IMG/VR virus record: IMGVR_UViG_3300040809_000713 | Coordinates: 1-21,064 of that record | Source of the DNA: a virus | DNA length: 21,064 bases | Strand: one strand, 5' to 3' | In this document: positions 2,820-20,687 of the stretch, one piece after another | How positions within the stretch are numbered: the stretch's first letter is position 1 | Layout of the letters: each line of letters opens with the position of its first letter | Made by a program: the position numbers and the translations under genes | The notes under the pieces: generated by a model | Database searches by the model: none | Seen by the model: only the letters and a program-made list of their open reading frames with translations | What the model was told of the DNA's origin: nothing

Positions 2820-2828
2820 AGTGAGTTT

Positions 2829-2834
2829 CTCCTT
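2829..2834 (-). promoter_or_regulatory. Strong ribosome-binding site of the 115-aa gene
   Basis: AAGGAG lies 9 bases upstream of the ATG at 2817-2819. It is one of the strongest Shine-Dalgarno matches in the window. With the promoter just upstream it gives a short untranslated leader of roughly 20 bases. Confidence 0.75.
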
Positions 2835-2845
2835 ATATGTGCTAT

Positions 2846-2874
2846 ATTATAATTTATCTATTCCCAGATGTCAA
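2846..2874 (-). promoter_or_regulatory. Consensus sigma70-type promoter
   Basis: Reading the minus strand, TTGACA (2869-2874) is followed by a 17-base spacer and TATAAT (2846-2851). Both hexamers match the bacterial housekeeping consensus exactly, and the spacing is ideal. The predicted start is near 2839-2840, about 20 bases before the 115-aa gene. The -35 box begins 3 bases after the stop codon of the 382-aa fibre-like gene, so it lies in the only real gap (58 bases) on this side of the window. The likely role is early or host-polymerase-driven expression of the glycosyltransferase cluster independent of late transcription of the structural genes. The sequence match is direct; the timing is inference. 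Confidence 0.85.
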
Positions 2875-2877
2875 GTA

Positions 2878-4026: not shown

Positions 4027-4944
4027 TTACTTTGCTCCTACTACTACTTCGACTGTGCCTGCAACATCAGTATCTTTGCTTGCAAGAGCTCTGCCAATGA
4101 TCCTTCTATAATCGTTAAGTTCAGCTGGGTGCGCTCTTCTTGCATGTCCTGGCATATTACTACTTACCAGTCTATCTCCTTTGGCTACAGTACCTACTAC
4201 CAAACAAGGTACACGCCCAGCTAGTGCTACATAAGGGTGTGTTTCGTCTGTACCTGCCGCCGCATTCATTTCAAATCCAGGTTGTGTACTTACGATTCCA
4301 AATACGTCAATATCACCTTCTTGTAGTGTTTGTGTAATTTCATGTGTGCCGCCTAGACGTACAACTGTACCATGTGCATAAGTCTGATCACTTGCATAGC
4401 GTTCTGCTAAGTCAGCGTATTCTGCACTAGTTGCTATACCTCTAAACTTAAAGTTTGTTGTATTGTTCATTTGGATACCAGCTTGAATAGTTGGAAACTG
4501 TGTTGTGAGTGCAGTTGACCCATCTTCTAAATATTCAGTGGCATGTGGTGTCCATACTGTTGCATCATCTGTACAAATCCAAACAATAACATTGTCTACC
4601 AAACACTCAATTGTGTTGTGATATGTGCCTAGCGTATCCTGTCTATATCTATATTCAAATCTTGTAGTACTTGCAGGCGCACCAATTTGATACCATTGAC
4701 CGTTGTCATATATCATAAGTTTACTGTTACCTGTATCGTACCAAAGTTGTCCTTCAGTGGGGTTGCTTGGTGCGTTAGCATCACTAAAGTTTTCTAGCAG
4801 ATGCAACAAGTCCTCGTTGAGTAGTTCACCGAAGTTTGTGTAGTTTTTACCAATTAGTCCTAAACTAGTGCTGGTGTCAACTGTACCGTCGTTTACTACG
4901 ATTGCTGTCTTTGCACTGTCGCTATAATCTACTGTATATGGCAT
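4027..4944 (-). CDS. Fibre-like structural protein with conserved C-terminal module
   Basis: This 305-aa protein has two recognisable parts. Residues 28-90 (LGLIGKNYTNFGELLNEDLL, then GQLWYDTGNSKLMIYDNGQW) form a module that recurs at the start of structural proteins in marine T4-like phages, where it probably docks to the virion. Residues about 174-305 (AEYADLAERY, DVFGIVSTQPGF, YVALAGRVPCLVVG, KGDRLVSS, RIIGRAL, VEVVVGAK) form a second module common at the C-terminus of phage fibre-like proteins. The GIVSTQP stretch recalls the intramolecular chaperone/self-cleaving (peptidase G2) domains of some phage tailspikes, but I see no proven catalytic residues. The start has AGGAAG (4950-4955) just upstream, in a 12-base gap after the preceding gene. 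The likely role is a baseplate-attached fibre or its adaptor. Structural assignment is fairly sure; the exact role is not. Confidence 0.75.
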   Translation of the reverse strand: MPYTVDYSDSAKTAIVVNDGTVDTSTSLGLIGKNYTNFGELLNEDLLHLLENFSDANAPSNPTEGQLWYDTGNSKLMIYDNGQWYQIGAPASTTRFEYRYRQDTLGTYHNTIECLVDNVIVWICTDDATVWTPHATEYLEDGSTALTTQFPTIQAGIQMNNTTNFKFRGIATSAEYADLAERYASDQTYAHGTVVRLGGTHEITQTLQEGDIDVFGIVSTQPGFEMNAAAGTDETHPYVALAGRVPCLVVGTVAKGDRLVSSNMPGHARRAHPAELNDYRRIIGRALASKDTDVAGTVEVVVGAK

Positions 4945-4956
4945 ATCGTCTTCCTA

Positions 4957-5559
4957 TTATAAGTCCGCAAACGAACTTCTTATTCTTAGTGTGTAAACAA
5001 CTTGTATTTTTCTGTTTGCACTTTTTTGTACAGGGTGAAAAATTACGTGAGTCAACAAATCGTTGTTGGCTGTGTACAGTGCTAGTTCGTCAAATACATA
5101 TGTACCATTCATATTTGTTGCTGTGTCTAATGTATCTTGTCCAACAGGTGTTGCATAATCCAATGTGCATGTTACAATTACATCGCTGTATGTGTTGGGG
5201 CTAGTATGACTTGCTTCTACACTATTGTCTGCGCTACCTGTAACAGATTCATCAACTGCTTGACTAAACGTCTGATTATACAGCGCACCTGTACTACTGT
5301 TTGTGTTAGTTGCTTTATATGTAACTGCACCTAAACCATCAATACTTGTCCCGCCATTTCCAAAACGCATAGTGCTTACTTCGTATGTGCTTGTTGATCC
5401 AGCTTCGCTAGCTAGTAGATTTGCAATTGCAATGCTCATGTTTTCGTAGTTCACAGCGTTGCGTCTACGAACCAGAACTTCGCCTGACTCTGGATCCCAA
5501 ATCTTAATATGTCCTTCAATACCTATTAAAGGTGTTTCAATATGTTGTTCTAAACTCAT
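4957..5559 (-). CDS. Baseplate- or fibre-associated structural protein, 200 aa
   Basis: The protein begins MSLEQHIETPLIGIEGHIKI and carries IKIWDPESGEVL, then NAVNYENMSIAIANLL and the glycine loop MRFGNGGTSIDG, followed by ALYNQTFSQAVDE. I recognise this order from structural proteins of marine T4-like phages, although no T4 counterpart is obvious. The C-terminal half is beta-rich and ends in the strand VVYTLRIRSSF. The frame is open further upstream to an ATG at 5604, but that start has no ribosome-binding site and would overlap the end of the giant gene. The ATG at 5557-5559 has GGAAAAG close upstream and fits the family N-terminus, so I prefer it. A late promoter box lies just before it (5579-5586), so this gene may begin a separate late transcript with the two fibre genes. 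It is probably part of the virion; the precise location is unknown. Confidence 0.78.
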   Translation of the reverse strand: MSLEQHIETPLIGIEGHIKIWDPESGEVLVRRRNAVNYENMSIAIANLLASEAGSTSTYEVSTMRFGNGGTSIDGLGAVTYKATNTNSSTGALYNQTFSQAVDESVTGSADNSVEASHTSPNTYSDVIVTCTLDYATPVGQDTLDTATNMNGTYVFDELALYTANNDLLTHVIFHPVQKSANRKIQVVYTLRIRSSFADL

Positions 5560-5578
5560 AGTCTTTTCCAATTTATAA

Positions 5579-5586
5579 TATTTATA
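5579..5586 (-). promoter_or_regulatory. T4-type late promoter box
   Basis: The minus strand reads TATAAATA, identical to the -10 element that T4 late transcription uses with its sliding-clamp-dependent sigma factor gp55. Placing the start 6 bases beyond the box gives a transcript beginning near 5573, about 14 bases before the preferred ATG at 5559. The box overlaps the TAA stop codon of the giant gene (5582-5584). No -35 element is expected for this promoter class. The window is AT-rich, so a chance match is possible, but its position just before a start codon favours a real site. Confidence 0.6.
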
Positions 5587-8500
5587 TCGATCCTTGACCC
5601 ACATTTCTTATAAATGCATGCTCGGGCGAAATTCCTGCGGCACTAAGACTAACACCGCTATCATTGTATGCCATACGCAGGTTATCTCCGTGATCAGAGA
5701 ACTTCTCTAGCGTAGGTATACGTGTTGTTGGGCCACTGTTAATTACAGTTGCACCACTATTGTGTGCTTTTGCACTTGTACCTAATGTACCTCTAATACA
5801 GAACAATAAGTTGTTTCCACTTATTGCGTTGTATTCAATACGTTCACCGTCTATATATACCACACATGGTACTTCACCTTTTCCAAACACAGTGTTTGGA
5901 TCATCAAGCAGTGCAGCATTTGTTACTGGAATTATTGTATCTGTACCAGAAACATTTGCAGTGGTTGTAGTTTTATTAGCATCAACAATAACATTACTTA
6001 TGTGTATGTCCATTGGTTGATATTGCGTCATTCTATAAGTTCTAGTATCTGCGGTTTCTGTGCTTCCGCTAGCGTTTGTTTGTACTGCTATACTAATGTT
6101 TTCTACAAAGTCAGTTGGGTAAAGTTCTTCACCCCATCCTTCACACACAGGTTGGACAAACAGATTTCCATTATATATGTAATCTAAGTTTGCGTCAATA
6201 GTAGTGAATGTAGAAATATCCTCATTACCAGTAGGTGTGCTTGTAAAGTCACCACCCAGCAACACTTGATCACATGCCCAATCTCTAAGTGTGTGATCAC
6301 TATACACCATAGTAATATTAGTATTTCTGCTTTGCTCGTCAATCTCGATGTTTGTAGCTTCACCATGTGTGTTACTATCTACCAAGTCTAGTAGTTTTGT
6401 ATGGAAAGGTTTGATTGTATCAAAGTATTTTTCAACAACATCTACACCAAATCTTTGATAAGTTGATTTGTTGAGTAATAGAGGATGATTAACACGTAAT
6501 CTCACATAAGTTGTTTTGAATGCAAAATCGTCTGTGGTGTTTTGTAATACTGCACTGTACAGTAACTTAAACCATAGCTTGTTATACATCACATGATGTC
6601 TGCCTACAAAAACATTTTTACGCAATAGATCCATGAGATGACCTATAACAATACTGCTATCACTATCAAACGGCATAAGATCATAGCTCATACTGTCAAA
6701 TCCATGACCAAACTTGCTTTGTAACCACATCTCTTCACTGAGCTGTACTGTTGACTTTTCTTTGAAAACAAGTTTATCTGTACCACCAACAAAGTGATAC
6801 ATTTTTTTCCTGTCAACTAAATCTGAACCTAAGTCATGTTTGATTAAAACATAACTACCTTCTGGTGGTTCACCTGCATTCAAATATTCTTGATCCGACT
6901 CATATACAAAGTCAGGAACAGTGTTTGTATCAAATCTATATGTTACAGTGCCTGCTGAATTCTTTTCTATCAGTTTAAAGTCTGTTAAATTTACATAGTC
7001 TTTGACATCATATGTTACTGCGCCTCTACTAAATGTAGTTTCAAATGTATCTTCCCAATTTTGCAATTCGTCTACAACGTTTACTTGACTCAGCATATCG
7101 TTTACTGTATAAACAAAGTTGTGTCTTGCTTCAACTAAGTCTCTGAACAAACTTTGTCTCGGACGCACAAGATGACCGTAACGATTGTATTCGTGTAAAT
7201 CTAAATCTGGAACATGTTGTCCTCTCCAAATTCGTATATCATCCACTTGCGTTCCGTCTACAAAACTGTAATCGTAAATTTTACTCCAGTGACTCATATC
7301 TGTGTCTAAACTTGGTTGCTGTGACTGATTGTTAGACTGTAAGCTGATATAATAATCATTACCTTCTTTAACAACTGCATCTTTGGCATACACTGTGCTG
7401 CTACCCCAAGTTGTATATGTACTATCAATTGAATAGTTGTTGAATCCTGTTAGACTATCACGCATTTTAATGTGCAAGTATTCTGGAATAGTTGTGTTAG
7501 GATCATTTTCTGCTAACAATGTCCATTCATTCAACGGCATACTGTTGCTGTCTGGATAACGCTGGTTAATCTGTACCACACTGTATTTGGTTACATAGTT
7601 GCTTACATTACTCAAAAACAGTTGACTACTGCCACTAGCCGCGGCCCAGCTCAATCCAAATGCTTCTGGATTGGCAAGTATCTGACTGAGTTGTGTAACA
7701 TTGTATTGTCTTATACCACTGAAACTTAATTTATTTTTTACCCAGAAATAGTAAACATTTTCATTTCTACGTGTTTTAGGATTGTAATAAACTTGCTCTG
7801 TCCAATTGTATATACGTTCGTTATCAACTGCTGTAAAGTATGCTTGTCCACTTGCAACATTACCATCGATAACTATTTCTGCATCTACTGCATCTTGCCA
7901 TTGTTCTGGAAGCACAGGACTACGTGTCCATTCGTATATATCGATACTGGCACCTGTTGCAAGTCTACCCCAGTTCATCTGTTGATAGTCTATTGTGCTT
8001 TGTTCGTAATCTAAATAAATCGCTGTGCTTATATCCCACCAACGTACACCAACATATTCTTCTGTCCATGAACTAGTGTTTGCAATTTCGCCGTCTATGC
8101 TGTTGTAATTGTAGCTGGCAATATCACTTGCTAATTTATAGTCGATCTCTTTGTCGACAAATCCAAATATGATGCCTTTTGCTGGATCCCATGTCTCAAT
8201 ATTTGCAATACTACTTCTGTTAAGTGCATCGTATATTTTTACATTTTCAATTAGATCATTTCTTGCTTGTGTGTTGCCTGTGCGTACTTTTTCAAATACA
8301 CCATTGTAATGTCCATTGGCATTGGTCCACAATCCACTCCATTTGTAAACTGCACTTTTGTTTGTACCGTCATTGTCTACATATGCATATATTGGCTGAG
8401 CTGTGTTGTTTTGTCTGAAACCACCAAAGTTATATTTGTACACACCATTGACTTGATTGTTTTTAACACTATCAAGTTCATTGAAAGTGCTGAATCTCAC

Positions 8501-11500
8501 AGGGCGTAGAGGATAAATGTTTCCGCCACTTCCTTCTTGCGTAATATATTGATCAATATAAAACTTAGTTACACTGTCACTGTCTACTTTGTGTACTCTG
8601 TGAATACCATCAATGCTAGGAATAGTTGTACTACCTCTGATCAACACATAATCGCCAACAGACAAATTGTGTGCTTGTGTTAAATTACTAGGGTATCTTG
8701 CAACAGTTATTTCAGCTTCGTCAGCATCAATAATTCCTGCACAACTGTAATTAACATACATGCTTAGATCCATTGTTTGATATACTTGATATCCTAAATT
8801 GTAGTTGCTTTCAACGCTGTCATCTGCAATATGAATACTAAAAATGTTTGGATCATTTGTCATTTCTCTAAACACTTGATTGTTGTCACTGCCTACAATA
8901 GCATTAAACACATTGCCAACTTGTATCGTTGCACTGTTGTATGTTTGTGCAACCAATCCCACTTGACCGTTACTTGATCCTGCGCCAATCACAAACTGAC
9001 TGTTAACACTAACCAGTTTTAGTCTGTTGTTGCTGTTGCTTGCACTTACTCCACTGATGCCAGCTTGATTAATTTTATCAACAATATCGTTAACATCAAG
9101 ACTTATGTTACTTGTGGTTGTAGTAGATCCTGCAGGTGTAACTCCTGGTGTAACACCTATTACACTGTTTGCAGTTCCGTTACCTATGTACAGTGTTGAT
9201 CTATTGCTGTTAATTTGTAATAGGTTTGTATTGTTTGCATTGATACTTGCTGTTATACCTGTAACACCAGCAGCATTAATTTGATTAACAGTTTGTTGTA
9301 ATGTTAAATTAGGGAAGCCAGTTGAGGTACTACTTGTTGCAGCAATTGTTTCTGTTTGTGTGCTAAAACCTACATCGTTATTTGCAGTTCCTACACTGAG
9401 TGTTAAATCAAATGCTACAGTAGGTGTACTGGTTGTTTTTGTCAATCTTAAAAATGTACCTGTATTGGTTGCAACAACGTTGGGAATACCTGCGTCATTA
9501 ATTTCTTGTACAATTCCTGCCAAAGTGTAAGTTTTAAAGGTTGTACCGCTTTGAGTAGCAACCACAGTAGTTGTGGCAAGAGTTACACTTGGATTACCTT
9601 TAACATATGTAGCAAAATCGTCGATGTATACACCATTGTCTACAGCGTTTTGTGTTGCTACAATATCACTGTTTGGTATTACTGTGCTGCCACTAATTAC
9701 TGCACTTGCTACGTAACTATTTCCTGTTTGCTCATTAATAAGAGCAACATCATTTGTAATTAAACTTTCTAGCTGTGTGACGTAACTTGGACTGGTCCCG
9801 TGTTCAACTAATAGTTGACTTAAATTTATACCAGCATTATTTGTAAAATAAGTTGTAATAAATGTTTGCCAAGCACTACTGCTATTTGCACTAATGTATG
9901 CTGTTCTCAATGCTTCTAAGGCATTGATCCTGTTGGTAGCTAAATTTGCTGTATTATTAAAGTTGTTTGCATTGAAACTGTTTTCCAATGCTGCTTGGGC
10001 AGTGATATTTGTTGTGGTTGCTACAGTATCATTAAATGTAACTGTTTGTCCGTCGATAATTAATGTTTTAGTTGCACTGCCTACAAAATTAGGATTGCTC
10101 ACTGTTCCTGTTTTAACAACATCATTGTAAGTTGTAGTTGTTACTGGATTGCTAAATGTAATAGTCTGTGCTAGCGAACTTGTTTCACCTAGTACAACTG
10201 TACTGCCGTGTGTTACAACATTACTGCTGGCAATGTCTTGAGTTCCAATAATGTTAATAACGCCAAGTGTTGTTGTCGTAGAAGTTTTAGTTAGTGTTAC
10301 TGTTGTGTTGTCTAACACCAATGTACCGCCGCTTGAAGGCACACTAGGAAGTGTAATAGTACCTATAACTTCAATTGGATCGTTACCTGTGCTAATACCA
10401 CTACTACCATCCGGATCTAGCATCGCCCAACTGCGTCCTTCGTACAGTACTTTGTCATTGTATTTGTAACTAATATAAGGATCCCAAGGCAATACATCTC
10501 TCCAGGCGCCGCTGAAGTTGTATGTATCATTTGAGTTTTCTACTAGAGATAACATATTTTGTCTATTAATAACTTGATAGTCTGTTTCTGTTGTAAGTGG
10601 TAACCCGCTGTTTACAAAGTCGCTGTGATATTCATCAGCTGTACTACCTGAATAAGTGTTTACTGCTCTTGTTGTAAAGTTGTTGCCAGGAGATCCAGTT
10701 ACGAGTAACGGACTATTACTATCAACGTCAATTGTTAAATCTGTCAGCGTATCATTTAATTCGCCTTGTGTAAATCTAATAGATTGAGGACTAGTGGCGA
10801 GCAAGTCTGGAGTCAGTTGAAACTCTATTGTATCTCTGCTTCTTGTATCTCCAAAGTCTGCAATTCTAATAGCCCATTCTTCATGTAGGTCAATCATAGC
10901 ATCAGCATCAAATAAACTTTTGTTTCTTGCAAATGCATCTAGTGCATACTTGGTACCTTTGTACTTGAGACTGCCTTGTACAAATTCAAACAATGTATCA
11001 TCGTCGATATCTAAATTATCTGCCCACTGTGGTTTATTGTATCCGCTATTGTATTTTGCAACGTTACTGATTTGACTATTGCTAAGATTTGCAGTTCTTC
11101 CGTAGTATTGATCAAGTTCTTTTGCAACTGTGTCATAGTTTGGAATAATTGTATTATCAGTGATTACAAAACCCGGACTGTAGAATCGTCCGTTCCAGTC
11201 TTTGGTTCTTGTACCTTGCCACACAATTCTATTATGACGCTGTCCAATAGCAGGATCATACACTACATCATCAAAGTTTGTAATATTATCAAACACAATT
11301 AAATGTTCTACTTGTGTTTTGTATAATCTTACTCCATATATTTCGTCACTACTATCTTTTACACTAAATGTTGTTTCCTTGTCAAGACTTAATATATTTC
11401 TATCAATGAGCAACTTGCTGGTTTGTATTTGATTTCCATTGCTATCGTTAACATTATAGATACCATCATATCTATTATTGATATTATCAAAGTATCCATT

Positions 11501-14500
11501 TGTACTATCTTGCACTGTGATCTTTGTGTTATCTGGAATAATTTTAAGTTGAATAGTTGTTTCACTGGATGCCCATGTTACAAAATCATTTGCAGCACTA
11601 CGCCATTGCTGTGTAAATCCAATTGTGTTTAGATAATAACCATACCCTACAATAAAGTTATAAACTTCTTGTATACTTGATAGTTCTGTATTATAATCTA
11701 ATGTACTTTCAGCGGTTTCAAAGTCTGTATATCTAAACACTTCAGTACTGCTTATAACTGCACTAATTTTATTACTACTGGTTACAGGAGCATAATATTT
11801 GAATGTAAGTTTACTGTTGTCATAGCCTGCAATCTTATACCCGTTTGCTGTTTTATCAATTTTAATTCCGCCAAAGAAGTATTCAGTATTAGGACTGTTT
11901 GTAAACAGTATTGTATTAAAGTTTTCTTCTGGAACAAATACACGACCTTTGCCTTGACTGCTTTCTAACATAAATTTTTGATTGCTGTTTACAAAGCCGC
12001 CTGCTTTAGCTACAGTACTAAACGACATATTTTCTAATCTAGTTTGAAGTTCTTCAACTGTTGTACTATTGCTTTTTGCAAAATCGATCACACTGTTTTG
12101 CATACCGATAAAGTAGCGTTTGCTATCTTCAGCTAGGATAGGCTCTAGTTTTGCTGCACCTGTGCTTGGTATTAGTGTTGGTCTATTGTAGTAGTTTTTA
12201 CCAGGATTGATCACACTAGCACTTGTAACTACACCTCCTGTGATGTGTGTTTGTATTTGTGCATCTTGTCCAAAGTTATCATATACACTCACTGTAGGCG
12301 CACTGGTATAACCTGTACCGCCATTGACAACTCTTACAGACTCGATAATTTTACCAGTTTGTATATTACCACTCAGTTGATGCGACTTCCAACTTGTTAG
12401 TTGATTTGCGGTACCATTGTACAATTGTGCATTATTGAAACTGCTAAGTGTAGATTCTTTTCTTTCATTGACAGCAAAATAGTTGTTGGTGGCAATCAGT
12501 GGTCTTGCTTTGAGTAGTGCTAAGAATTCTACAATTTTGTATTCAGAACTGCGTCTCCATTCGGCTTCTACCGGACCCCAGTCTCCAAACTCAAATGCAC
12601 GAGCAGGATCTGTTGGCGTAGCAACAACACCAGCTGTGTTTGGATCGTTTAATACACCTGCATTTGTTACCAGTGTATTGGTTGCCCAATCATAATTGTT
12701 ATAACTGTAATTGATATCGTATACAGCATCTAGTGATGGATTGTTAATTTTACCGTACTTGAGTGCAGTTATTAAGTTTGCTCTCTCAGTGGCATCTGTC
12801 CAGCTATAGTTTGCGTCCCACCAGCTAGGTTTGCGATTGTATCCCATCATTTCCCAAGGATGTGTGTGCGGTCTATCTGTGTTAAAGAAGTAATGATACA
12901 ATCCTCTCCAGCCGCCGATACCTGGAGTAACATCGCTGTAGTTCCATGTCCATTTGTCACTAGCATCATAGTAGGTATCACTTTGTAGAGCAGTAACATT
13001 ATTAGCTACTTTCCATTTGTTAAATTCGCTTTTTACAGTGTCTTGGAATTTGTTCCATGTGTATACATTTGCTCTGTGTGCATTAGGCGTATAAGTTTTT
13101 ATACTTTTTACATTATCTAATTTTGTATGTTGTATGTTGTTGTAAATTCTACACTCTAGATCCCACAGAGCAGCATCTACAGGATCAAATCCTACTTTAC
13201 TTCTGTCATATAGTTCAGTACCATTGCGAACATGCACACTGCCGTCGTGTCCAACAATTACTGTGTCTGTGGCTGTTCCTGTGCTATCTTTGCTGTAATC
13301 ACTGCGTAACTCAGGCAAGTAACTTTTACACAATCCTAGTTTAACTGCACTAGGTGGCACAAAGCTAATACTTGCTCTAGGATACCATCTTACGTGTAAC
13401 TGTGCTTGTCCTCCTGATGGGAATGTTGGGGTTGTTGTCACTGTAATTTTATTACTGCCCAGCGTATAATCTTGATCTTTGATCAAAGCTCTCCAGCGGG
13501 TGTTTCCAGCTCCGTCATCATCATTTAGCCAAACCTGTATATGATTTTGTTCGTCGTCATATGTGTTAACACTTTCAGGTAAATCGAACACAGGTGTTGT
13601 TGGATTGTTCCAACCATAGTCTGCACTTTCGTAATCTCTGTACATAGCCATATTGCTGTTGGCAAACAGTGTACTTTTATTTTTACCTACAAACATTGCT
13701 TCTAATGTACGATCCACTAGTGTGTAAACAGGCTGTGTAATATCCAATGTGTTGTGCAGTTGTGCTGCTTTGAGTTTGAATTGTTTTTTGAATATGCTGT
13801 ATTGATTAGCATTAAACTTAACACTACTATATGGATTAGTATCTTTGTCCATCAGTAACTGATTTAACAGTTCTGTACTGTATGGTTGTTGTCTAATAGT
13901 ACCACCAAATTCATGCACATGCGGTAGTTGTCTATAATTGTTAATACCAAAATAATCGCCTGTAAATCCTGGGATCCCAGTCATCTGTTGTCTAATGTGT
14001 TCTACTAGATCTCCAAAACTGATATTTGCAAAATCTAAATTTTGCGCATTATGTGTTTGTGTGTCAGCTATCAGTTGTGACCCTTCTACTGTATCACTAT
14101 AATCTGCTTCTGTATAATACTCTACTTCGTAAATATCATCTATAGCTGATGCACCTGTGATGCTAAGAATGTTGCCACTTAAACTGTATGCACTTATTTT
14201 TGTTCTGTTTCGGTATACTGTGATGTTGGTATAATCGCTAACAGTGTTGATATAAATTATACCTTCTTTGTTAGTTGTGCCAACAACACGATATTTAATT
14301 GCTGTTTGACTTGGTGTTGCAATTGCAAATGTAAACACATCACCTGTGCCAGAACTTCTTGTAAACCCACTGCCCAATGCTGTGCCATCAAAATCTACAA
14401 ATTCAATTTGATTTTGTGCAAATTGTGTTTGGAATGTGTATGTTGTTCCTGTGTTCATAAACAGTGTAGGTAATGTGCCATTGACGAGATTTAGTCTATT

Positions 14501-16798
14501 TGTAAGACTGCTATCTTTTTGACTGCTTACTCTAAGTTTGTCGTCGCTGGTTTTTGTGAACACAAAATACTTGTCTTTGTCAAAACTATTGTGACCTAGA
14601 TCAAATTTTAGTGTTTGGCCCGCTGTTGCTTTTGTTATTGTTTTTCTTACTACACGTTTTACTGGCTGGCTATTTCTAATGGTTACCCATCCGTTGTGTG
14701 CAGTACCATCTAACATTTTATAATAATAATATCCAGTTATTGATCGTGTAAGACTCTTTTCAGTGTTTGGACTGCTTTGTGTATACTTGAATTTTTTGTT
14801 TACTAAATCAACTGAAAAGTTAATACCCGGACTGTTACCATAATCAACATAGTCGACTCCAAACCCTAGTGCAGCATCTATTGGGTTTGCTGTGTTATGA
14901 ACATAATCAAAAATGTAACCACCTTTGAAATTACTGTTAGGATATGTAGCAGTATTGTCTAATTTTACATTGTTGATATCATACAGTTGTGCCAGCATAC
15001 CAAAACTACGTGCAGTTTTTTGCTGTCCATAAATCCATGCACTGCCATTCCAATACCATTCACTTCCATCATACGGCTCTGATGATTCGTTAGTTGTACC
15101 AAACTTCATTGAATTGTGACCATTGATAATCACAACTTTGTCATTGGTATTAATAGCTGTACTTCCGCTGCCATAAATTTCTGTTAAAACAATGCTGGTC
15201 CCTACACCACTTACTCTAAAAATTTTGTTATTATAAACACTGTTGGTTGTTTGCAAGAACATTACAATATCATTATTTTGCAGTGCTTGTGGCACAATCC
15301 TTTTCCAAAAATTGTAATTCTGTGACTGCGAAGGGTCTTTTGGATCAGTGTGTTTGGCAATACATTCATAGTAAGTGATGTTGCTGTTTACTGACAAATA
15401 AACTAAGTCGCCTGGTTCGTAACCACTGCCAGAACTCCATTGAGTAGTAATACCAGAAATAGTCCAATCCCAATCTGTTTGTCCAACAATAGCTGTGGCT
15501 GGATCAATATTATCTTCTACTAGATGATCAACATATGAGATATGATTTTTACCAAAGTTATATTTTTCTATTCCTGCTTTGTATTCAATGACAGGACGTA
15601 CAGCTCTGAATGTATCAACAATATAATCACCAGCTGTTAAATCTTGATATGCACACATAGCCTGCGCACTATCTTCATGTATCCATAAATTGCTTCTAGC
15701 CCATGCACTGTGATCTGCTGCCCATCTCTCTTCAACAACATAGTCACGCTTTGTGTTTTTGTATTGATCCGTATCAGTAGGATCAAAGCTGAATGTCGTA
15801 GGAGTTTCTACAAAGTCATTTCTATTCTGAGTATCATAAATCGCTGTATTAATAAAATGTCTTGCATAATGATTATATCTAGTTGCTTCGTATTGTTTAG
15901 TTAACTTAATACCTGTGCCTACACCATCCACAATATAAATGCTGTCAACTTCATAATTCCCACTTGTACTATAAGAATGAAAATTAGTTACTCGTATTAC
16001 ATCGTTTACTGCTGGTGCAGTAGTAAATGTTATCAATCCAGTATTAGTGTTATATGTATAATCAGTTGTAACCGTTTGTATTAGATTATTTTTAAAAACT
16101 TTTACAGTGTTAGAATAAGCACCCACTGTGAATGTTGTATTACCAGAAACTGTTTGTGTAAATTCAGTAAACTGAGATTGAGTAAATCGAATTCTCATAC
16201 CGTTTTGTAGTGTGAGAGTTTTACCATTCACTAGTGTAGGTGTAGTATAAAAAGTTCTGCCAATAATAGTGTCAATATCAATAGGATTAGCAAGCACTGC
16301 ACTTAAACTACATGGCGGAAGAATATCAGTCAGCCAAAAGTACTTGTGATAGTTTATAAACATATCATAGTTAATTGGCAAGTCCAATGTATAAGCAGTT
16401 TCATTCAATGTTTTGTTGTGATTGTTGACATCAACTTCATTGAATTTCATTGCGTTAATAAGATCATCATAGGGCAATGCACCTTGTATGTTTTGATCTG
16501 TATCTTTGTTTACAAGTCCAGGTGTAAACTGGTATGTGTCATTGCTTCTATCATCAACGATGTAGTTGTCAGCTACAGTATTTTTAAGATACTGTTGTCC
16601 TATATAGTTCTTGATAGGCTGTAAGCTACCGCTACTGAGCAATTGCTCCATAGTAGTATCTAAAAACTGTCTGTTGACCTGTGTTTGAAATATCTCTGGT
16701 AAAAAGTTTGAGATATTGCGTGTACCAAAGTGTTCGTTAGACTCACCCGGTCTTGTGATCATCGGCGCCTTTATAGGTCGTGGACTGCGTTCGCTCAT
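5582..16798 (-). CDS. Giant modular baseplate/tail structural protein, 3738 aa
   Basis: This uninterrupted gene starts 4 bases inside the end of gp6 (ATGA overlap), with GGAG upstream, where T4 encodes baseplate wedge gp7. The N-terminus (residues 20-160, with NISNFLPEIFQTQVNRQFLD, later INYDMFINYHKYFWL) resembles large virion proteins of marine T4-like phages. I see these modules in order: beta-hairpin units with NxLI...DYT...ITFT at about 229-273, 859-894 and 1086-1138; aromatic W..G..Y..GD modules like carbohydrate-binding ones at about 454-498, 2099-2130 and 3131-3171; a GGTGYTSAP module near 1484-1550; a Thr/Asn/Ser-rich region at about 2140-2625 holding a helical island and three flagellin-IN-like repeats; and a C-terminal IDGERIEY...RGTLGTS module at about 3615-3690. 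I see no enzyme motif. It probably forms the periphery of the baseplate wedge and carries the fibres, possibly doing the work of several T4 wedge proteins. Structural assignment is strong; equivalence to gp7 rests on position only. Confidence 0.85.
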   Translation of the reverse strand: MSERSPRPIKAPMITRPGESNEHFGTRNISNFLPEIFQTQVNRQFLDTTMEQLLSSGSLQPIKNYIGQQYLKNTVADNYIVDDRSNDTYQFTPGLVNKDTDQNIQGALPYDDLINAMKFNEVDVNNHNKTLNETAYTLDLPINYDMFINYHKYFWLTDILPPCSLSAVLANPIDIDTIIGRTFYTTPTLVNGKTLTLQNGMRIRFTQSQFTEFTQTVSGNTTFTVGAYSNTVKVFKNNLIQTVTTDYTYNTNTGLITFTTAPAVNDVIRVTNFHSYSTSGNYEVDSIYIVDGVGTGIKLTKQYEATRYNHYARHFINTAIYDTQNRNDFVETPTTFSFDPTDTDQYKNTKRDYVVEERWAADHSAWARSNLWIHEDSAQAMCAYQDLTAGDYIVDTFRAVRPVIEYKAGIEKYNFGKNHISYVDHLVEDNIDPATAIVGQTDWDWTISGITTQWSSGSGYEPGDLVYLSVNSNITYYECIAKHTDPKDPSQSQNYNFWKRIVPQALQNNDIVMFLQTTNSVYNNKIFRVSGVGTSIVLTEIYGSGSTAINTNDKVVIINGHNSMKFGTTNESSEPYDGSEWYWNGSAWIYGQQKTARSFGMLAQLYDINNVKLDNTATYPNSNFKGGYIFDYVHNTANPIDAALGFGVDYVDYGNSPGINFSVDLVNKKFKYTQSSPNTEKSLTRSITGYYYYKMLDGTAHNGWVTIRNSQPVKRVVRKTITKATAGQTLKFDLGHNSFDKDKYFVFTKTSDDKLRVSSQKDSSLTNRLNLVNGTLPTLFMNTGTTYTFQTQFAQNQIEFVDFDGTALGSGFTRSSGTGDVFTFAIATPSQTAIKYRVVGTTNKEGIIYINTVSDYTNITVYRNRTKISAYSLSGNILSITGASAIDDIYEVEYYTEADYSDTVEGSQLIADTQTHNAQNLDFANISFGDLVEHIRQQMTGIPGFTGDYFGINNYRQLPHVHEFGGTIRQQPYSTELLNQLLMDKDTNPYSSVKFNANQYSIFKKQFKLKAAQLHNTLDITQPVYTLVDRTLEAMFVGKNKSTLFANSNMAMYRDYESADYGWNNPTTPVFDLPESVNTYDDEQNHIQVWLNDDDGAGNTRWRALIKDQDYTLGSNKITVTTTPTFPSGGQAQLHVRWYPRASISFVPPSAVKLGLCKSYLPELRSDYSKDSTGTATDTVIVGHDGSVHVRNGTELYDRSKVGFDPVDAALWDLECRIYNNIQHTKLDNVKSIKTYTPNAHRANVYTWNKFQDTVKSEFNKWKVANNVTALQSDTYYDASDKWTWNYSDVTPGIGGWRGLYHYFFNTDRPHTHPWEMMGYNRKPSWWDANYSWTDATERANLITALKYGKINNPSLDAVYDINYSYNNYDWATNTLVTNAGVLNDPNTAGVVATPTDPARAFEFGDWGPVEAEWRRSSEYKIVEFLALLKARPLIATNNYFAVNERKESTLSSFNNAQLYNGTANQLTSWKSHQLSGNIQTGKIIESVRVVNGGTGYTSAPTVSVYDNFGQDAQIQTHITGGVVTSASVINPGKNYYNRPTLIPSTGAAKLEPILAEDSKRYFIGMQNSVIDFAKSNSTTVEELQTRLENMSFSTVAKAGGFVNSNQKFMLESSQGKGRVFVPEENFNTILFTNSPNTEYFFGGIKIDKTANGYKIAGYDNSKLTFKYYAPVTSSNKISAVISSTEVFRYTDFETAESTLDYNTELSSIQEVYNFIVGYGYYLNTIGFTQQWRSAANDFVTWASSETTIQLKIIPDNTKITVQDSTNGYFDNINNRYDGIYNVNDSNGNQIQTSKLLIDRNILSLDKETTFSVKDSSDEIYGVRLYKTQVEHLIVFDNITNFDDVVYDPAIGQRHNRIVWQGTRTKDWNGRFYSPGFVITDNTIIPNYDTVAKELDQYYGRTANLSNSQISNVAKYNSGYNKPQWADNLDIDDDTLFEFVQGSLKYKGTKYALDAFARNKSLFDADAMIDLHEEWAIRIADFGDTRSRDTIEFQLTPDLLATSPQSIRFTQGELNDTLTDLTIDVDSNSPLLVTGSPGNNFTTRAVNTYSGSTADEYHSDFVNSGLPLTTETDYQVINRQNMLSLVENSNDTYNFSGAWRDVLPWDPYISYKYNDKVLYEGRSWAMLDPDGSSGISTGNDPIEVIGTITLPSVPSSGGTLVLDNTTVTLTKTSTTTTLGVINIIGTQDIASSNVVTHGSTVVLGETSSLAQTITFSNPVTTTTYNDVVKTGTVSNPNFVGSATKTLIIDGQTVTFNDTVATTTNITAQAALENSFNANNFNNTANLATNRINALEALRTAYISANSSSAWQTFITTYFTNNAGINLSQLLVEHGTSPSYVTQLESLITNDVALINEQTGNSYVASAVISGSTVIPNSDIVATQNAVDNGVYIDDFATYVKGNPSVTLATTTVVATQSGTTFKTYTLAGIVQEINDAGIPNVVATNTGTFLRLTKTTSTPTVAFDLTLSVGTANNDVGFSTQTETIAATSSTSTGFPNLTLQQTVNQINAAGVTGITASINANNTNLLQINSNRSTLYIGNGTANSVIGVTPGVTPAGSTTTTSNISLDVNDIVDKINQAGISGVSASNSNNRLKLVSVNSQFVIGAGSSNGQVGLVAQTYNSATIQVGNVFNAIVGSDNNQVFREMTNDPNIFSIHIADDSVESNYNLGYQVYQTMDLSMYVNYSCAGIIDADEAEITVARYPSNLTQAHNLSVGDYVLIRGSTTIPSIDGIHRVHKVDSDSVTKFYIDQYITQEGSGGNIYPLRPVRFSTFNELDSVKNNQVNGVYKYNFGGFRQNNTAQPIYAYVDNDGTNKSAVYKWSGLWTNANGHYNGVFEKVRTGNTQARNDLIENVKIYDALNRSSIANIETWDPAKGIIFGFVDKEIDYKLASDIASYNYNSIDGEIANTSSWTEEYVGVRWWDISTAIYLDYEQSTIDYQQMNWGRLATGASIDIYEWTRSPVLPEQWQDAVDAEIVIDGNVASGQAYFTAVDNERIYNWTEQVYYNPKTRRNENVYYFWVKNKLSFSGIRQYNVTQLSQILANPEAFGLSWAAASGSSQLFLSNVSNYVTKYSVVQINQRYPDSNSMPLNEWTLLAENDPNTTIPEYLHIKMRDSLTGFNNYSIDSTYTTWGSSTVYAKDAVVKEGNDYYISLQSNNQSQQPSLDTDMSHWSKIYDYSFVDGTQVDDIRIWRGQHVPDLDLHEYNRYGHLVRPRQSLFRDLVEARHNFVYTVNDMLSQVNVVDELQNWEDTFETTFSRGAVTYDVKDYVNLTDFKLIEKNSAGTVTYRFDTNTVPDFVYESDQEYLNAGEPPEGSYVLIKHDLGSDLVDRKKMYHFVGGTDKLVFKEKSTVQLSEEMWLQSKFGHGFDSMSYDLMPFDSDSSIVIGHLMDLLRKNVFVGRHHVMYNKLWFKLLYSAVLQNTTDDFAFKTTYVRLRVNHPLLLNKSTYQRFGVDVVEKYFDTIKPFHTKLLDLVDSNTHGEATNIEIDEQSRNTNITMVYSDHTLRDWACDQVLLGGDFTSTPTGNEDISTFTTIDANLDYIYNGNLFVQPVCEGWGEELYPTDFVENISIAVQTNASGSTETADTRTYRMTQYQPMDIHISNVIVDANKTTTTANVSGTDTIIPVTNAALLDDPNTVFGKGEVPCVVYIDGERIEYNAISGNNLLFCIRGTLGTSAKAHNSGATVINSGPTTRIPTLEKFSDHGDNLRMAYNDSGVSLSAAGISPEHAFIRNVGQGSI
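8941..9535 (-). repeat. Three flagellin-IN-like protein repeats inside the giant gene
   Basis: Three diverged repeats share the pattern [IV]v..IN.AG[IV]..[VI].A.......L.[LI], followed in repeats 2 and 3 by IG.G..N..[VI]G. The IN pairs are at residues 2433 (EINDAGIPNVVAT), 2507 (QINAAGVTGITAS) and 2576 (KINQAGISGVSAS), so the spacing is 74 and 69 residues. The pattern resembles the IN motif of flagellin and hook-associated proteins, a small surface beta domain. The repeats differ enough at DNA level that recent slippage is unlikely. Confidence 0.7.
12149..12349 (-). other. GGTGY-type beta module in the giant protein
   Basis: Residues about 1484-1550 read VRVVNGGTGYTSAPTVSV, then ITGGVVTSASVINPGKNYYN and RPTL. 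The pair of half-repeats ([V]NGGTGY..[AI]P.V and V.NPG..Y..[RP]) is the same as in the gp6 module at 18243-18474. It is a glycine-rich beta module found in many phage and bacterial surface proteins and is likely a surface decoration. Confidence 0.7.
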
Positions 16799-19700
16799 TG
16801 GTAAGATACTCCAGTGCTTTCAGCTATTGTTGTGCTGTTGGAAACAATACTGTTAGACACAATAATGTTTGATGCTTCAACTACAGGAAGAAATAGTTCG
16901 TCTCCTGCACTAGTTATTTCAAATAGTTCTTTGGTGTCTGTGCTATTGCCAACTGGTTGAATTGTAACTTGACTTATTTCGCCAATCATGTTATTGTGAA
17001 TATATGCTGCCATTTCAGTAAAGTAAAAGTCTTCACCGAAGTCCCAGTTTTCAACTGCAAAGTAATCATTGATAAGTCTTATTACCTGCTGTTTTACTTC
17101 AGTGTCACTGAGTGTACTGTTTGCAGTTTTAGTTACATTAAATCTAGCCTGTAGTTCACTACTAGCCAAATCACCAAATAGTATTTTATACTTAACTGGT
17201 CTGTAAATAACTTGATCACTAATACTCTTTTTAGTTTCTAATACTTCAAACATATTTGTAAGTTCACTAATAGTTGGCGGATTCGGTTTAGTTTCTGTTC
17301 TGCCATCATATTTTGTCCAAGTTCTAAACTGTCTATCATAACTTGACATTAATACATATGTGTCTACAATGTTTGTAATAGCAGGATCAATTACATTGTT
17401 GATGTCACTGATTCTGTCATACTGTGTGTGCAAATTAGCTTTACCGTTTACAATTGTAGTACCATTGGCATCATAACACACATAGTCAAATCCGTCTACA
17501 GTTTTTGTTCCTAGTTTAATAGTTTGTCCAGCTAATACATTGTTGAATGCTTCTGGATTAGTAGGATAGTCTCCGTTGTTAGGATCAGCAAGTGTAACTC
17601 TCACATTGTGAGGATCTGTGTAGCCATCTTGATATACAAAATATCCAAACAAATTAAACTTATAGTCTCTGCCTAAAGCAGTTGAATCTAGTTCACTAAC
17701 AGGATTTATTCTCAACACTTTCAAACAATCTCTGAGAGGTTTTTGTGTTTCACTGCTGAATGTACTGTTGAAGTTTAAGTTGCTAAATTTAAGTTTAGCA
17801 CTACTGCCAAATACCATTTGTGTTTTGCGAGTAAGTATTTCCCATTGTGTACTGCTATAGTTGAAGCGTATAAGCCAACTGTTGTCTATGCCAGTGCCGC
17901 CTGTATTACCTTCGTACTGTCTACTCCAACTACTCACTGCATTCAGTGTGGTTGTGTTAGCAGGAATATCTCCGCTTTCAATGATGTGCCACTGTTGTGT
18001 GTCACTGTTATATCTCAGTGCAAAACTTACTTTTGAATCTATCTTGTTTACAACTTGTGTTTTAATTGTGTCTGTAAAGTCTTTGGCAAACACAGGAACA
18101 ATACGTCTAACTCTTGCACCATCTTCTACTACACCACTCAGCACCACAGCACCTTTGCCTGTGTTGTCATTTCCTGTTGGAATACCGTCTGCTGTGTCAT
18201 CACCCAAGCCATCTTTGTAAAGTCTATCAACTTTAACCCACTGTGTGTTACTGTCAGCTAGTGTTACTTTAGCAGTGGCATTGCTTCCGCTGCCACCTGT
18301 GATTGTAACTGTAGTACCGTTTTCATAACCACTTCCTGCATTGGTAATTGCAATAGCTGTGACTGTGCCACTTGTAACTGTGGCTGTAGCTGTTGCGCCT
18401 GATCCAACGCCGTTAACTGTAACTGTGGGTATGCCTGTGTATCCTGTGCCGCCGTTTACCACTGTGATAGTTTTTACATACCCCATCTGATAAGGCGCAC
18501 TAATAAATTCTACCAAGCTGTTTAAACTTGCTTTTTTCAAACTGTTGGTTTGCACAAGTCCGGTACGCTGTACAATACTGTCTTTGGTAAAATATCCACT
18601 GCTACTTCCACTTGCTTTTGTAACTTGGTTCCAGCGGAATACTCCGGTGATGTCTGTTTCTGTTGCATTTCTAAACACAATGCCACTTGTTGTATTATTG
18701 AAATCTGAATTGCTGTTAAACGTTGTGCTTGTGTAACCTTGTCTTGTGTAGTAAAAGTTTTTAACTTCTGCATTGCCCAGCATTGGTCTAATATACTTTT
18801 TATAAATCTGTTCACCATTCAACGAGTTAGGCAAACTAACAAGACTTCTGTTGGTCACATTATTTTCATACACATAACCGTCGTCTGTGTATTGTGTTGC
18901 ATCATTATAAGTTGCTGTAGGATCATATAAGTCACGGAATCTACTGTGACCACTGTGTACACGGTTAATACTTTTAATCTTGCGAATATTTTCACTTACT
19001 GTTACAGGAAAAATACTGTAATCAGCAGCAGTAACCATTCTGTCCTGTGCGGCAAAGAATCTTGGAGCATTGGCTTTGATACTAGCAACACTTTCTCTTG
19101 TGCTAGCGTTGGTTACATTATTCTTCAAACTGAGAGTAAAAAGTGCATTGTATGTATTACCATCAGCTCCTTGATAATCAATGTTCATACTTGTACTATT
19201 AAATGTATCAGGATTAAGGCTATAAGATTCATTTAGTCCTGTGCGATACCAAACTCTAATGTTACCACGTGGAATATTTCCAAAACTTCCATCGCCAAAT
19301 ACAATACTAACTTGATCACTTTCTCTGCTAGCAACACTGTAAATATCTCTGATAGCATTACTGGTGCTGTTAAATATAGCACTGTTTCCAAACAGCTTAT
19401 CAACTCTTGTCCAATTTTTTTGTACTTGTCCTACTTCGTCGATTGTTTGTACCCATATGTTTCCATTTGCAATGTTGTCTACATTAATATCAAGTACCAT
19501 ATTTGATAAACCATTTGTGATATTAAAGTCTTTGTATTCCATTGCACCTTGCTTGAATCCTACAAAAAATCCAGTATTTGAACTGCTATTACCGCTGTTG
19601 TCATTTTTGTACAACAAATCAACAACACTGTAAGGATCAGGTGTTTTTTCAATCACTGTGTTCTGTGAAGTAGTTTTGCTACTGTAAAAACTAAATGTGG

Positions 19701-20325
19701 CATTTTTGTTATTGATTCTGTTTTGAAAATTGCGAGTTGCTATATTGTTTACACTGCTGGTTCTGTAAATTTCATTGCTCACACTACCTATTGTAACTTT
19801 ACTATAAGGAGATCCAAACTGACTACTGCTTTGAAACATGCTGTTCATAATAGTTAAAAAGTTTTTATAACTGTTGGGATCAGTTGTGTCATCAAATTGC
19901 ACTGATATATTTGCTAAACTGTTACCGTTTGTGTCAAACACAGGCTCGTTTGTTCTCACACTGTCTATCTTTAAAAATCCGTTGGCAACAACATTTCTAG
20001 TAGGTGTATATCCTAAGAAGTCAGCAATACGTAAGGCGCTTTCTCTGCGTTCTGCTGTGCTTAAATAATTTTCTCTGCTGGCTAAGTCTGCTCTGTATGC
20101 TAAGTTATGACCTAAGAAAGCCATAAGTTCTAACAAACTTACAAATTCACTTGAGTTGATCCAGTCATTGAAGTTTTCCGGATAGTTGTTGTTAATATAA
20201 TCAACCATAGCGTTACGAATAGTTTCAAAGTCATAAGCCTGAAAATTAGCTTCACTAAAACTTTCGTACACTACGCTGAAATCTTCAGCAGCAAATAAAC
20301 TGCTCTGTCTTGCGCCTTGTGCCAT
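16795..20325 (-). CDS. gp6: Baseplate wedge subunit gp6, enlarged
   Basis: gp6 forms the inner ring that links the wedges of a T4-type baseplate. The match is clearest in residues 32-120: FETIRNAMVDYINNNYPENF, NSSEFVSLLELMAFLGHNLA, then YRADLASRENYLSTAERRES and LGYTPTRN. This is the conserved N-terminal part of gp6 and related baseplate J-type proteins. Residues 440-470 (FFAAQDRMVTAADYSIFPV) and the C-terminal region from about 1060 (RPVKYKILFGDLASSELQAR, later NWDFGEDFYFTEMAAYIHNN) also fit. At 1176 aa it is nearly twice the length of T4 gp6 (about 660 aa). Part of the extra length is a GGTGY-type module at about 618-693. It overlaps the gp25 stop by one base (TAATG), with AGGTGA upstream, and ends in an ATGA overlap with the giant gene. 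The gp25-gp6 order supports the call. Confidence 0.93.
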   Translation of the reverse strand: MAQGARQSSLFAAEDFSVVYESFSEANFQAYDFETIRNAMVDYINNNYPENFNDWINSSEFVSLLELMAFLGHNLAYRADLASRENYLSTAERRESALRIADFLGYTPTRNVVANGFLKIDSVRTNEPVFDTNGNSLANISVQFDDTTDPNSYKNFLTIMNSMFQSSSQFGSPYSKVTIGSVSNEIYRTSSVNNIATRNFQNRINNKNATFSFYSSKTTSQNTVIEKTPDPYSVVDLLYKNDNSGNSSSNTGFFVGFKQGAMEYKDFNITNGLSNMVLDINVDNIANGNIWVQTIDEVGQVQKNWTRVDKLFGNSAIFNSTSNAIRDIYSVASRESDQVSIVFGDGSFGNIPRGNIRVWYRTGLNESYSLNPDTFNSTSMNIDYQGADGNTYNALFTLSLKNNVTNASTRESVASIKANAPRFFAAQDRMVTAADYSIFPVTVSENIRKIKSINRVHSGHSRFRDLYDPTATYNDATQYTDDGYVYENNVTNRSLVSLPNSLNGEQIYKKYIRPMLGNAEVKNFYYTRQGYTSTTFNSNSDFNNTTSGIVFRNATETDITGVFRWNQVTKASGSSSGYFTKDSIVQRTGLVQTNSLKKASLNSLVEFISAPYQMGYVKTITVVNGGTGYTGIPTVTVNGVGSGATATATVTSGTVTAIAITNAGSGYENGTTVTITGGSGSNATAKVTLADSNTQWVKVDRLYKDGLGDDTADGIPTGNDNTGKGAVVLSGVVEDGARVRRIVPVFAKDFTDTIKTQVVNKIDSKVSFALRYNSDTQQWHIIESGDIPANTTTLNAVSSWSRQYEGNTGGTGIDNSWLIRFNYSSTQWEILTRKTQMVFGSSAKLKFSNLNFNSTFSSETQKPLRDCLKVLRINPVSELDSTALGRDYKFNLFGYFVYQDGYTDPHNVRVTLADPNNGDYPTNPEAFNNVLAGQTIKLGTKTVDGFDYVCYDANGTTIVNGKANLHTQYDRISDINNVIDPAITNIVDTYVLMSSYDRQFRTWTKYDGRTETKPNPPTISELTNMFEVLETKKSISDQVIYRPVKYKILFGDLASSELQARFNVTKTANSTLSDTEVKQQVIRLINDYFAVENWDFGEDFYFTEMAAYIHNNMIGEISQVTIQPVGNSTDTKELFEITSAGDELFLPVVEASNIIVSNSIVSNSTTIAESTGVSYQ
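18243..18474 (-). other. GGTGY-type beta module inserted in gp6
   Basis: Residues about 618-693 of gp6 read KTITVVNGGTGYTGIPTVTV, GSGATATATVTSGTVTAIAI, TNAGSGYENGTTVTITGG, then SNATAKVTLAD. This is a complete copy of the module that appears in shorter form in the giant protein. It is flanked by ordinary gp6 sequence, has no counterpart that I know of in T4 gp6, and has a marked Gly/Thr/Val/Ala bias. Confidence 0.75.
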
Positions 20326-20687
20326 TATTCTTCACCTACATATGTTAACAACAGTTCTTCTGCTGTTCCTGTATCAATATATTCCATTCTCACACGCACT
20401 TCTAGTGTATGCTCGGTGGGCTTGTTCAATAGTGTTTCTATAACTCTCCATCTAGGATCGTTAGTCACTATTCTATTCACATCGTCTAGTGCTTCTGCTT
20501 CTGTTGTATAATCCAGCGGTTCAAACACCAACTCAGGTAGTATGCTACCAAATGTTGGATTCATTACACGTTCGCCTCTGCGAGTGTAAAAATGATTCAT
20601 CAAGTCACGTTTTGCAATATCAACATCTTCCAATGTTTTACTGCCTGTGACTGTGTCTATTGTGCTATATCCGATGTATGTTGCCAT
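20325..20687 (-). CDS. gp25: Baseplate wedge subunit gp25
   Basis: This 120-aa protein belongs to the gp25 family (lysozyme-like fold without lytic function), which sits next to gp6 at the sheath-baseplate junction and helps start sheath assembly. The family signature is clear at residues 24-60: AKRDLMNHFYTRRGERVMNP, then TFGSILPELVFEP. A second conserved part follows at about 68-85 (DDVNRIVTNDPRWRVIE), and the protein ends in strands (LEVRVRMEYID, ELLLTYVGEE). T4 gp25 is 132 aa, so this copy is complete and slightly short. The start at 20685-20687 gives the expected N-terminus (MATYIGYSTIDT), but no Shine-Dalgarno sequence can be seen before it. A CATAAATA box ends only 5 bases upstream. It overlaps gp6 by one base. 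Confidence 0.94.
   Translation of the reverse strand: MATYIGYSTIDTVTGSKTLEDVDIAKRDLMNHFYTRRGERVMNPTFGSILPELVFEPLDYTTEAEALDDVNRIVTNDPRWRVIETLLNKPTEHTLEVRVRMEYIDTGTAEELLLTYVGEE

Follow-up and report, generated by a model that had tools for sequence, protein, structure and literature searches.

In bacteriophage T4 the gene for the baseplate wedge protein gp6 is followed by the gene for gp7, a 1032-aa protein whose domain A swings during baseplate opening, according to the available text of PMC3004832. The same text describes P2 and Mu as having no counterparts of the peripheral T4 proteins gp7–gp11, and the available account of the XM1 wedge gives no counterpart of gp8–gp11 (PMC10457771). Thus, the absence of gp8–gp11 from a phage does not imply that these proteins have been fused. 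In XM1, the gp7 orthologue gp17 has a small core that pairs with a gp6-type dimer, plus an extra loop and a C-terminus that hold the tail spikes (PMC10457771, available text).

Very large proteins directly after gp6 are also encoded by certain marine phages. In P-SSM2, gp25 and gp6 are followed by a 5195-aa protein annotated as gp7 (PSSM2_111) and then by a separate gp8; in S-PM2, a 3048-aa protein (S-PM2p084) occupies the gp7 slot and is followed by a small protein and gp8; and in HTVC008M, a 1016-aa protein occupies the slot, followed by gp8 (assigned by phrog_438). P-SSM2 gp7 aligned with T4 gp7 through the core (hhalign E 4e-9 in one direction and 4e-7 in the other).

The window analyzed here is an entire IMG/VR record, a fragment of 21,064 bp. 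Its minus strand encodes, in order, a 113-aa end of a cut gene, gp25, a gp6-like protein, a giant protein of 3738 aa, proteins of 215, 305, and 382 aa, and smaller genes. The main genes are as follows.

20325..20687, minus strand: gp25-like baseplate wedge protein or sheath initiator, 120 aa (GPW_gp25, PF04965, E 1.7e-7; phrog_43).

16795..20325, minus strand: gp6-like baseplate wedge protein, 1176 aa (phrog_10646, E 5e-264; phrog_219, E 4e-21; a weak PDB match, E 9e-6, to the solved baseplate protein BplA, 9ay5_Y).

5582..16798, minus strand: giant virion protein P0001, 3738 aa, 417 kDa, of the phrog_10938 family (from frame, translation, and PHROGs).

4957..5604, minus strand: P0004, conserved small protein, 215 aa, with its likely start at an inner ATG at residue 16.

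4027..4944, minus strand: P0005, fibre-like protein, 305 aa.

The gp6 assignment comes from PHROGs and the weak BplA match, the Pfam model Gp6-like_1st being reached at 0.042 only; the protein is nearly twice the length of T4 gp6. As originally predicted, the giant is a single frame directly downstream of the gp25 and gp6 genes, beginning with ATG, free of internal stops, and overlapping the end of the gp6-like gene by four bases. A frame of at least 3400 aa stays open in 39 of 74 IMG/VR loci, a set that holds many near-identical or duplicate contigs and several cut by the contig end; the giant is thus a real gene rather than a chance frame.

We infer that the giant is the outer-wedge protein in a marine jumbo phage of the RaK2/PA5oct type, standing in the place of gp7 and carried in the virion, with equivalents of gp8–gp11 probably absent rather than fused into it (probability about 0.55). 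Taken by itself, its placement in the gp7 slot is likely. The giant resembles T4 gp7 in following gp6, although it has no significant sequence match to gp7 (HMMER, hhalign). With the cyanophage giant gp7 proteins (phrog_2885/phrog_4406) it shares its size, its position directly after gp6, and the GGxGY and tail-tip-type beta modules; however, those proteins have a detectable gp7 core of their own near the N-terminus and are followed by gp8, directly or after one small gene, and no overall homology was found between them and the jumbo phage giant.

The giant matches phrog_10938 over four stretches (PHROGs profile search, E 4.1e-237) and belongs to a family of virion proteins already known from RaK2-like jumbo phages, though uncharacterised; the family is not new. 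Its other members (121Q gp582, RaK2 ORF070, GAP32 gp230, PA5oct gp355, and Atu_ph07 gp180 among them; 3313–4555 aa) carry the conserved blocks in the same order as the window giant and also lie after gp6, except in SCTP-2. Identity to the window giant is 21–34% per block, with 43% in one short repeat module, and distant relatives do not share its region 2041–2830 and some modules. BLAST of the whole giant against nine named giants (PA5oct, Atu_ph07, SCTP-2, 121Q, RaK2, GAP32, Vibrio 2.275.O, Phosso, and XacN1) recovered blocks in the same order in all nine, with no more than three blocks in XacN1, the exception to this order being one repeated GGxGY module in Atu_ph07. The blocks kept in distant jumbo relatives span residues of about 16–165, 342–720, 880–1070, 1141–1440, 1554–2040, 2833–3254, and 3318–3517. 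Four regions were marked out.

16304..16729, minus strand: residues 24–165, conserved domain at the N-terminus that does not fold confidently by itself (residues 1–150, pLDDT < 50).

8309..10678, minus strand: residues 2041–2830, poorly conserved to distant jumbo phages, although members of the marine group conserve this region as well as the rest of the protein; it looks rich in Thr/Ser by eye.

7037..8302, minus strand: residues 2833–3254, conserved block; its alignment with Phosso is the best of all single BLAST blocks (E 1e-52), and a chitin-binding-type module lies inside it.

6359..6601, minus strand: residues 3400–3480, region of the motif D[WF]xFKT[ST][YF]...KP[FY].

The N-terminus, which had looked conserved from the window sequence, does contain six invariant columns across residues 1–200 in 17 sequences. 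A tblastn search with the N-terminal 504 residues matched 16 phage records, each longer than 280 kb, whereas a search with gp6 matched 65 records; the 60 of these listed come from the same circle of jumbo phages, except two short ones (86 and 110 kb). Scanning IMG/VR with the N-terminus of the giant gave the 74 loci mentioned above, and such a number of marine relatives points to a widespread design. In a Pfam scan of the whole giant nothing exceeded the cut-off (PF09343 at 0.057 only), and PDB sequence searches with the giant, 121Q gp582, and two sub-alignments gave no match or chance-level rows (0.51, 1.5). The best BFVD matches are other unnamed or uncharacterised large proteins, the Atu_ph07 one included, and tail fibres come next.

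The order gp25–gp6–giant was found in eight of the nine named jumbo phages inspected. The exception is SCTP-2, in which the giant lies ~92 kb from gp6 and is preceded by a 3096-aa gene (10624–31415 and 15001–18726 of the stretches examined). The end of gp6 is at most 300 bases from the start of the giant in all 74 IMG/VR loci with upstream sequence, which are not independent because they were found through the giant itself, and gp25 is upstream in all 57 loci with room for it. In the available table for Sinorhizobium phage AP-J-162 (PMC11242549), the baseplate wedge protein 57, of 1198 aa, is directly followed by the structural protein 58, of 4455 aa. In 121Q, a gene annotated as group I intron-associated lies just before the gp6 gene (17232–17996 of the stretch examined).

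The distant location in SCTP-2 favours a different reading, in which the giant would be a peripheral scaffold or network protein for fibres rather than a partner of gp6, and the true gp7 would be another, undetected protein. Tight linkage to gp6 elsewhere, together with several blocks kept across the whole group, argues against this reading, as does the failure to find any other gp7 candidate, though the phrog_964 profile used for gp7 also misses S-PM2 and HTVC008M. We regard such a scaffold as somewhat unlikely.

Relatives of the giant are virion proteins, by annotation in PA5oct and by mass or neighbour in phAPEC6 and CBB, so that absence from virions, which the original prediction had named as evidence against itself, does not hold for these relatives. 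The available phAPEC6 data list virion protein gp245 (381.88 kDa, 17 unique peptides) after the 131-kDa baseplate wedge protein gp244; 121Q gp582 has a computed mass of 381.87 kDa, the correspondence being by mass and not by sequence. In the available CBB data, CBB_236 is represented by 21 virion peptides and was identified by its gene number beside gp6 (CBB_237), not by sequence. The annotation of PA5oct gp355 carries an ESI-MS/MS note, and the main text of the Atu_ph07 paper does not name gp180.

PHROGs files phrog_10938 under the kind “head and packaging,” whereas gene order ties the family to the baseplate. This filing would suit an appendage (whisker) protein of the tail or head, as would the whiskers or hair-like fibres that CBB and phAPEC6 bear along their sheaths according to the available texts. 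However, PA5oct and RaK2 have the same family, the gene is linked to gp25 and gp6, and the PHROG description reads merely “virion structural protein”; an appendage role is thus highly improbable.

Separate genes for gp7, gp8, the gp9/gp10 N-terminus, and gp11 were sought in the records of jumbo relatives with T4 as positive control, and none was over the cut-off. For gp8, PF09215 matched T4 and had no match in six jumbo records or three IMG/VR contigs. The marine gp8 family phrog_438 was full-length in P-SSM2, S-PM2, and HTVC008M and in pieces in T4; in Atu_ph07 and the three IMG/VR contigs the match was confined to positions ~185–280, inside giants or gp6, which corresponds to the shared GGxGY module, and there was no match in the other five jumbo phages. 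This beta module occurs in both the gp6-like protein and the giant of the window, and confuses homology counts. PF07880 (gp9/gp10 N-terminus) matched T4 twice and nothing over the cut-off in the six jumbo records; the three cyanophage-type records gave no match with this model either. PF08677 (gp11) was over the cut-off only in T4 among 16 records, nine of them from jumbo phages, and missed the cyanophages too.

For gp7 itself, phrog_964 matched T4, reached E 8e-5 in P-SSM2, and had no match in the nine jumbo records; because the gp7 proteins of S-PM2 and HTVC008M were missed as well, this result is no proof that gp7 is absent. Similarly, PF09684 (Tail_P2_I, P2 gpI) found nothing over the cut-off among the 16 records, the T4 and cyanophage gp7 proteins included. 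The short form of gp53 was found in all 13 records at E <= 10 and over the cut-off in seven, including PA5oct and SCTP-2 of the six jumbo phages. A table in the CBB paper gives gp25, gp6, and gp53, and “gp7,” “gp8,” and “gp10” appear nowhere in its main text as available.

Sub-threshold matches of PF07880 in SCTP-2 (E 0.0013), of GP11 in Phosso (with three stops), and of PF09684 in 121Q (with stops) were taken as chance. PA5oct gp358, called gp10-like in an annotation note, was rejected: Pfam gives a C-terminal Gp10_C domain (E 1e-23), and nothing in the PA5oct record matches the N-terminal model for gp9/10.

The original prediction proposed that one molecule may replace several wedge proteins of T4. 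In its fullest form, the whole outer wedge of RaK2-like jumbo phages would be one polypeptide, with a mid-chain gp7-type core flanked by about 1.9 and 1.7 thousand residues, whose covalent modules for fibre docking, sugar binding, and inter-wedge contact would do the work of T4 gp8, gp9, gp10, and gp11; we consider this improbable. A fusion replacing gp7, gp8, and gp10/gp11 together would fit the lack of matches over the cut-off to gp8, gp9/10-N, and gp11 in the jumbo records tested. With the copy numbers and masses in the available text of PMC3004832, T4 gp7 + 2 gp8 + 3 gp10 + 3 gp11 amount to ~465 kDa per wedge, against 417 kDa for the giant, an agreement that proves nothing. No gp8, gp10, or gp11 domain was matched inside the giant by Pfam or PHROGs, and no window protein matched any of the gp7–gp11 families in either collection. 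Moreover, P2 and XM1 do without gp8–gp11 and without any giant, and in P-SSM2 a still larger gp7 coexists with a separate gp8, which weakens giant size as an argument for fusion. A fused outer wedge is accordingly improbable: of the original claim, the gp7 position is retained, and the idea that one protein takes over from several is unsupported.

The giant was also predicted to be a chain of beta modules. AF2 models were made of residues 1–1195 (30 sequences, mean pLDDT 60.6) and 2826–3738 (19 sequences, mean pLDDT 52.7), and within these ranges the description holds, at modest confidence, for residues ~155–900 and several C-terminal parts. Structure matches with Z below 8 lie within the chance range and are marked as such below.

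15977..16180, minus strand: residues 207–274, fibre-adaptor-type beta module (CBA120 TSP4, 7rfv, Z 10.7, rmsd 1.3, 64 aligned).

15293..15448, minus strand: residues 451–502, chitin-binding-type module (chitin deacetylase 4nz1_A, Z 6.2, chance range, rmsd 1.7, 46 aligned, 28% identity).

14243..14578, minus strand: residues 741–852, beta sandwich with a cupredoxin/MakD-like arrangement (Z about 7, a level reachable by chance).

13373..13642, minus strand: residues 1053–1142, second, possibly adaptor-like beta module, weak (7y1c_g, Z 7.6; phiKZ baseplate 9xqd_G, Z 7.1; both chance range).

12164..12358, minus strand: residues 1481–1545, GGTGYTSAP module, also present in gp6 and in cyanophage gp7/gp8.

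7283-7420, minus strand: residues 3127–3172, chitin-binding-type module (MmChi60 9fbp_A, Z 6.7, chance range, rmsd 1.2, 45 aligned).

5723..6004, minus strand: residues 3599–3692, tail-tip/baseplate-type beta module (8jov_1, Z 10.4; Chi tail tip 8vjh_A, 9.7; JBD30 baseplate 8rk3_b, 9.3).

The module at residues 207–274, which we take to be a fibre adaptor, also matched phage B2 Gp48/49 (9d84_B, Z 10.5) and, at a Z of 6.4 that is within the chance range in each case, the N-terminus of T7 gp17 (7boz_a) and residues 171–274 of T4 baseplate chain 5iv5_B, which is taken to be gp6 from its chain length. The chitin-binding-type module at residues 451–502, which we take to be CBM5/12, has a parallel in the vB_Pa-PAC2 orthologue, annotated as chitin-binding type-3. 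The module at residues 3599–3692 is also found inside P-SSM2 gp7 (53–123; hhalign probability 91%, E 1e-6). Such a set of modules (adaptor, chitin-binding-type, tail-tip) would be typical of receptor-binding parts and to that extent fits the fibre scaffold. None of the T4 gp7, gp8, and gp10 chains is among the PDB structure matches listed for the giant models, an absence that is no evidence either way.

The candidate region for a gp7-type core lies outside both AF2 models.

10769..11011, minus strand: residues 1930–2010, conserved block with K/R-G-T, a weak candidate for a wedge core of gp7/gpI type (profile–profile comparison).

Against a merged gp7/gpI core profile, this block supplied the top four of 90 giant windows (21.6–22.0; next 17.9), and a deeper alignment of it scored 26.6, above all 300 column-shuffled profiles (maximum 20.0). 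The P values were 0.0013–0.0018, and 0.0036 in another build, with an HH probability of 9–18%; for scale, T4 versus HTVC008M gp7 reached only 0.0016–0.0046. Among 101 sequences of the block, 98 retain G and T; the K is kept in 60 and is R in 35, and all its replacements (R, Q, S, or N) together number 41. The block resembles the KG pair that is invariant in a 13-sequence gp7/gpI alignment, P2 gpI (176 aa) and XM1 gp17 (242 aa) being putative compact counterparts.

Other comparisons limit the reach of this match. The 13-sequence core profile (HMMER) found nothing in the window, three IMG/VR records, or nine jumbo records; the block region had no phrog_964 or PF09684 match in PHROGs and Pfam; and T4 gp7 alone gave no signal against it (P 0.21–0.23). 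When windows along the giant were compared with each of four gp7 families in turn, HTVC008M alone picked the block (P 0.016–0.02), P-SSM2 and S-PM2 gp7 picked the shared C-terminal beta module of the giant, and the T4 gp7 family gave nothing significant. A core-bundle hairpin just before the block scored 14.9, which is within background, since 200 shuffles reached up to 18.6; hairpin windows ranked first and third of 123, tied with an unrelated window. By hhalign, the N-terminal domain of the giant gave nothing convincing against T4 gp7, three cyanophage/pelagiphage gp7 proteins, or T4 gp6, gp8, gp9, gp10, and gp11; its P of 0.025 with T4 gp7 fell at 146–188, outside the core. The K/R-G-T block is therefore put forward as the best place for a gp7/gpI-type core, a weak sequence-based lead and not proof, and the faintness of the match counts in favour of the fibre scaffold. 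A split core, with the LP helix (residues 33–34) some 1,900 residues from the KG motif, was dropped, and the C-terminal FKT...KPFHTK region received no profile support as a gpI-like domain (P 0.57).

Returning to the gp7-slot reading, the giant would be the third partner of the (gp6)2–gp7 wedge heterotrimer, in the place held by P2 gpI and XM1 gp17. One copy per wedge would bind the gp6 dimer via a gp7-type core, for which the K/R-G-T block (residues 1930–2010) is the best candidate, and long arms on both sides would carry the adaptor, chitin-binding-type, and tail-tip-type modules. These arms may dock the products of the downstream fibre genes, bind surface sugars, and touch the cell surface, and receptor contact could then be passed through gp6 and gp25 to trigger the sheath. 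The simplest reading would be the plan of XM1 and T4 gp7, with greatly extended arms.

RaK2-like jumbo phages are large and have many pathogens among their hosts. In the open-access literature searched, no text was found that assigns the giant to the gp7 position in these phages, and the available texts name it only as a hypothetical or structural protein. Its placement in the gp7 slot provides a concrete test of how the baseplate is built and where fibres attach; the sole tail reconstruction we met for RaK2-like jumbo phages, that of phAPEC6, is at about 25 Å in the available account.

Downstream of the giant, the conserved P0004 precedes the fibre-like genes. P0004 has no Pfam match and is 31–43% identical to proteins of all nine jumbo phages, even where the gene has moved or been inverted. 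The PA5oct orthologue carries an ESI-MS/MS mark, and the 121Q orthologue has a mass of 21.95 kDa, equal to that of virion protein gp251c in the available phAPEC6 data. P0004 is a candidate fibre connector. In P0005, the part that finds matches is residues 124–305 or less, and the matched parts are protein C-termini from the PA5oct, Phosso, and Atu_ph07 clusters.

At the opposite end of the window, the end of the cut gene upstream of gp25 (20721–21062, minus strand) resembles the adaptor modules of the giant by eye, and matches were found in 60 loci. P0008 and P0009 (689–2468, minus strand), with no Pfam match above the cut-off, have by eye the look of glycosyltransferases, including D-S-D motifs.
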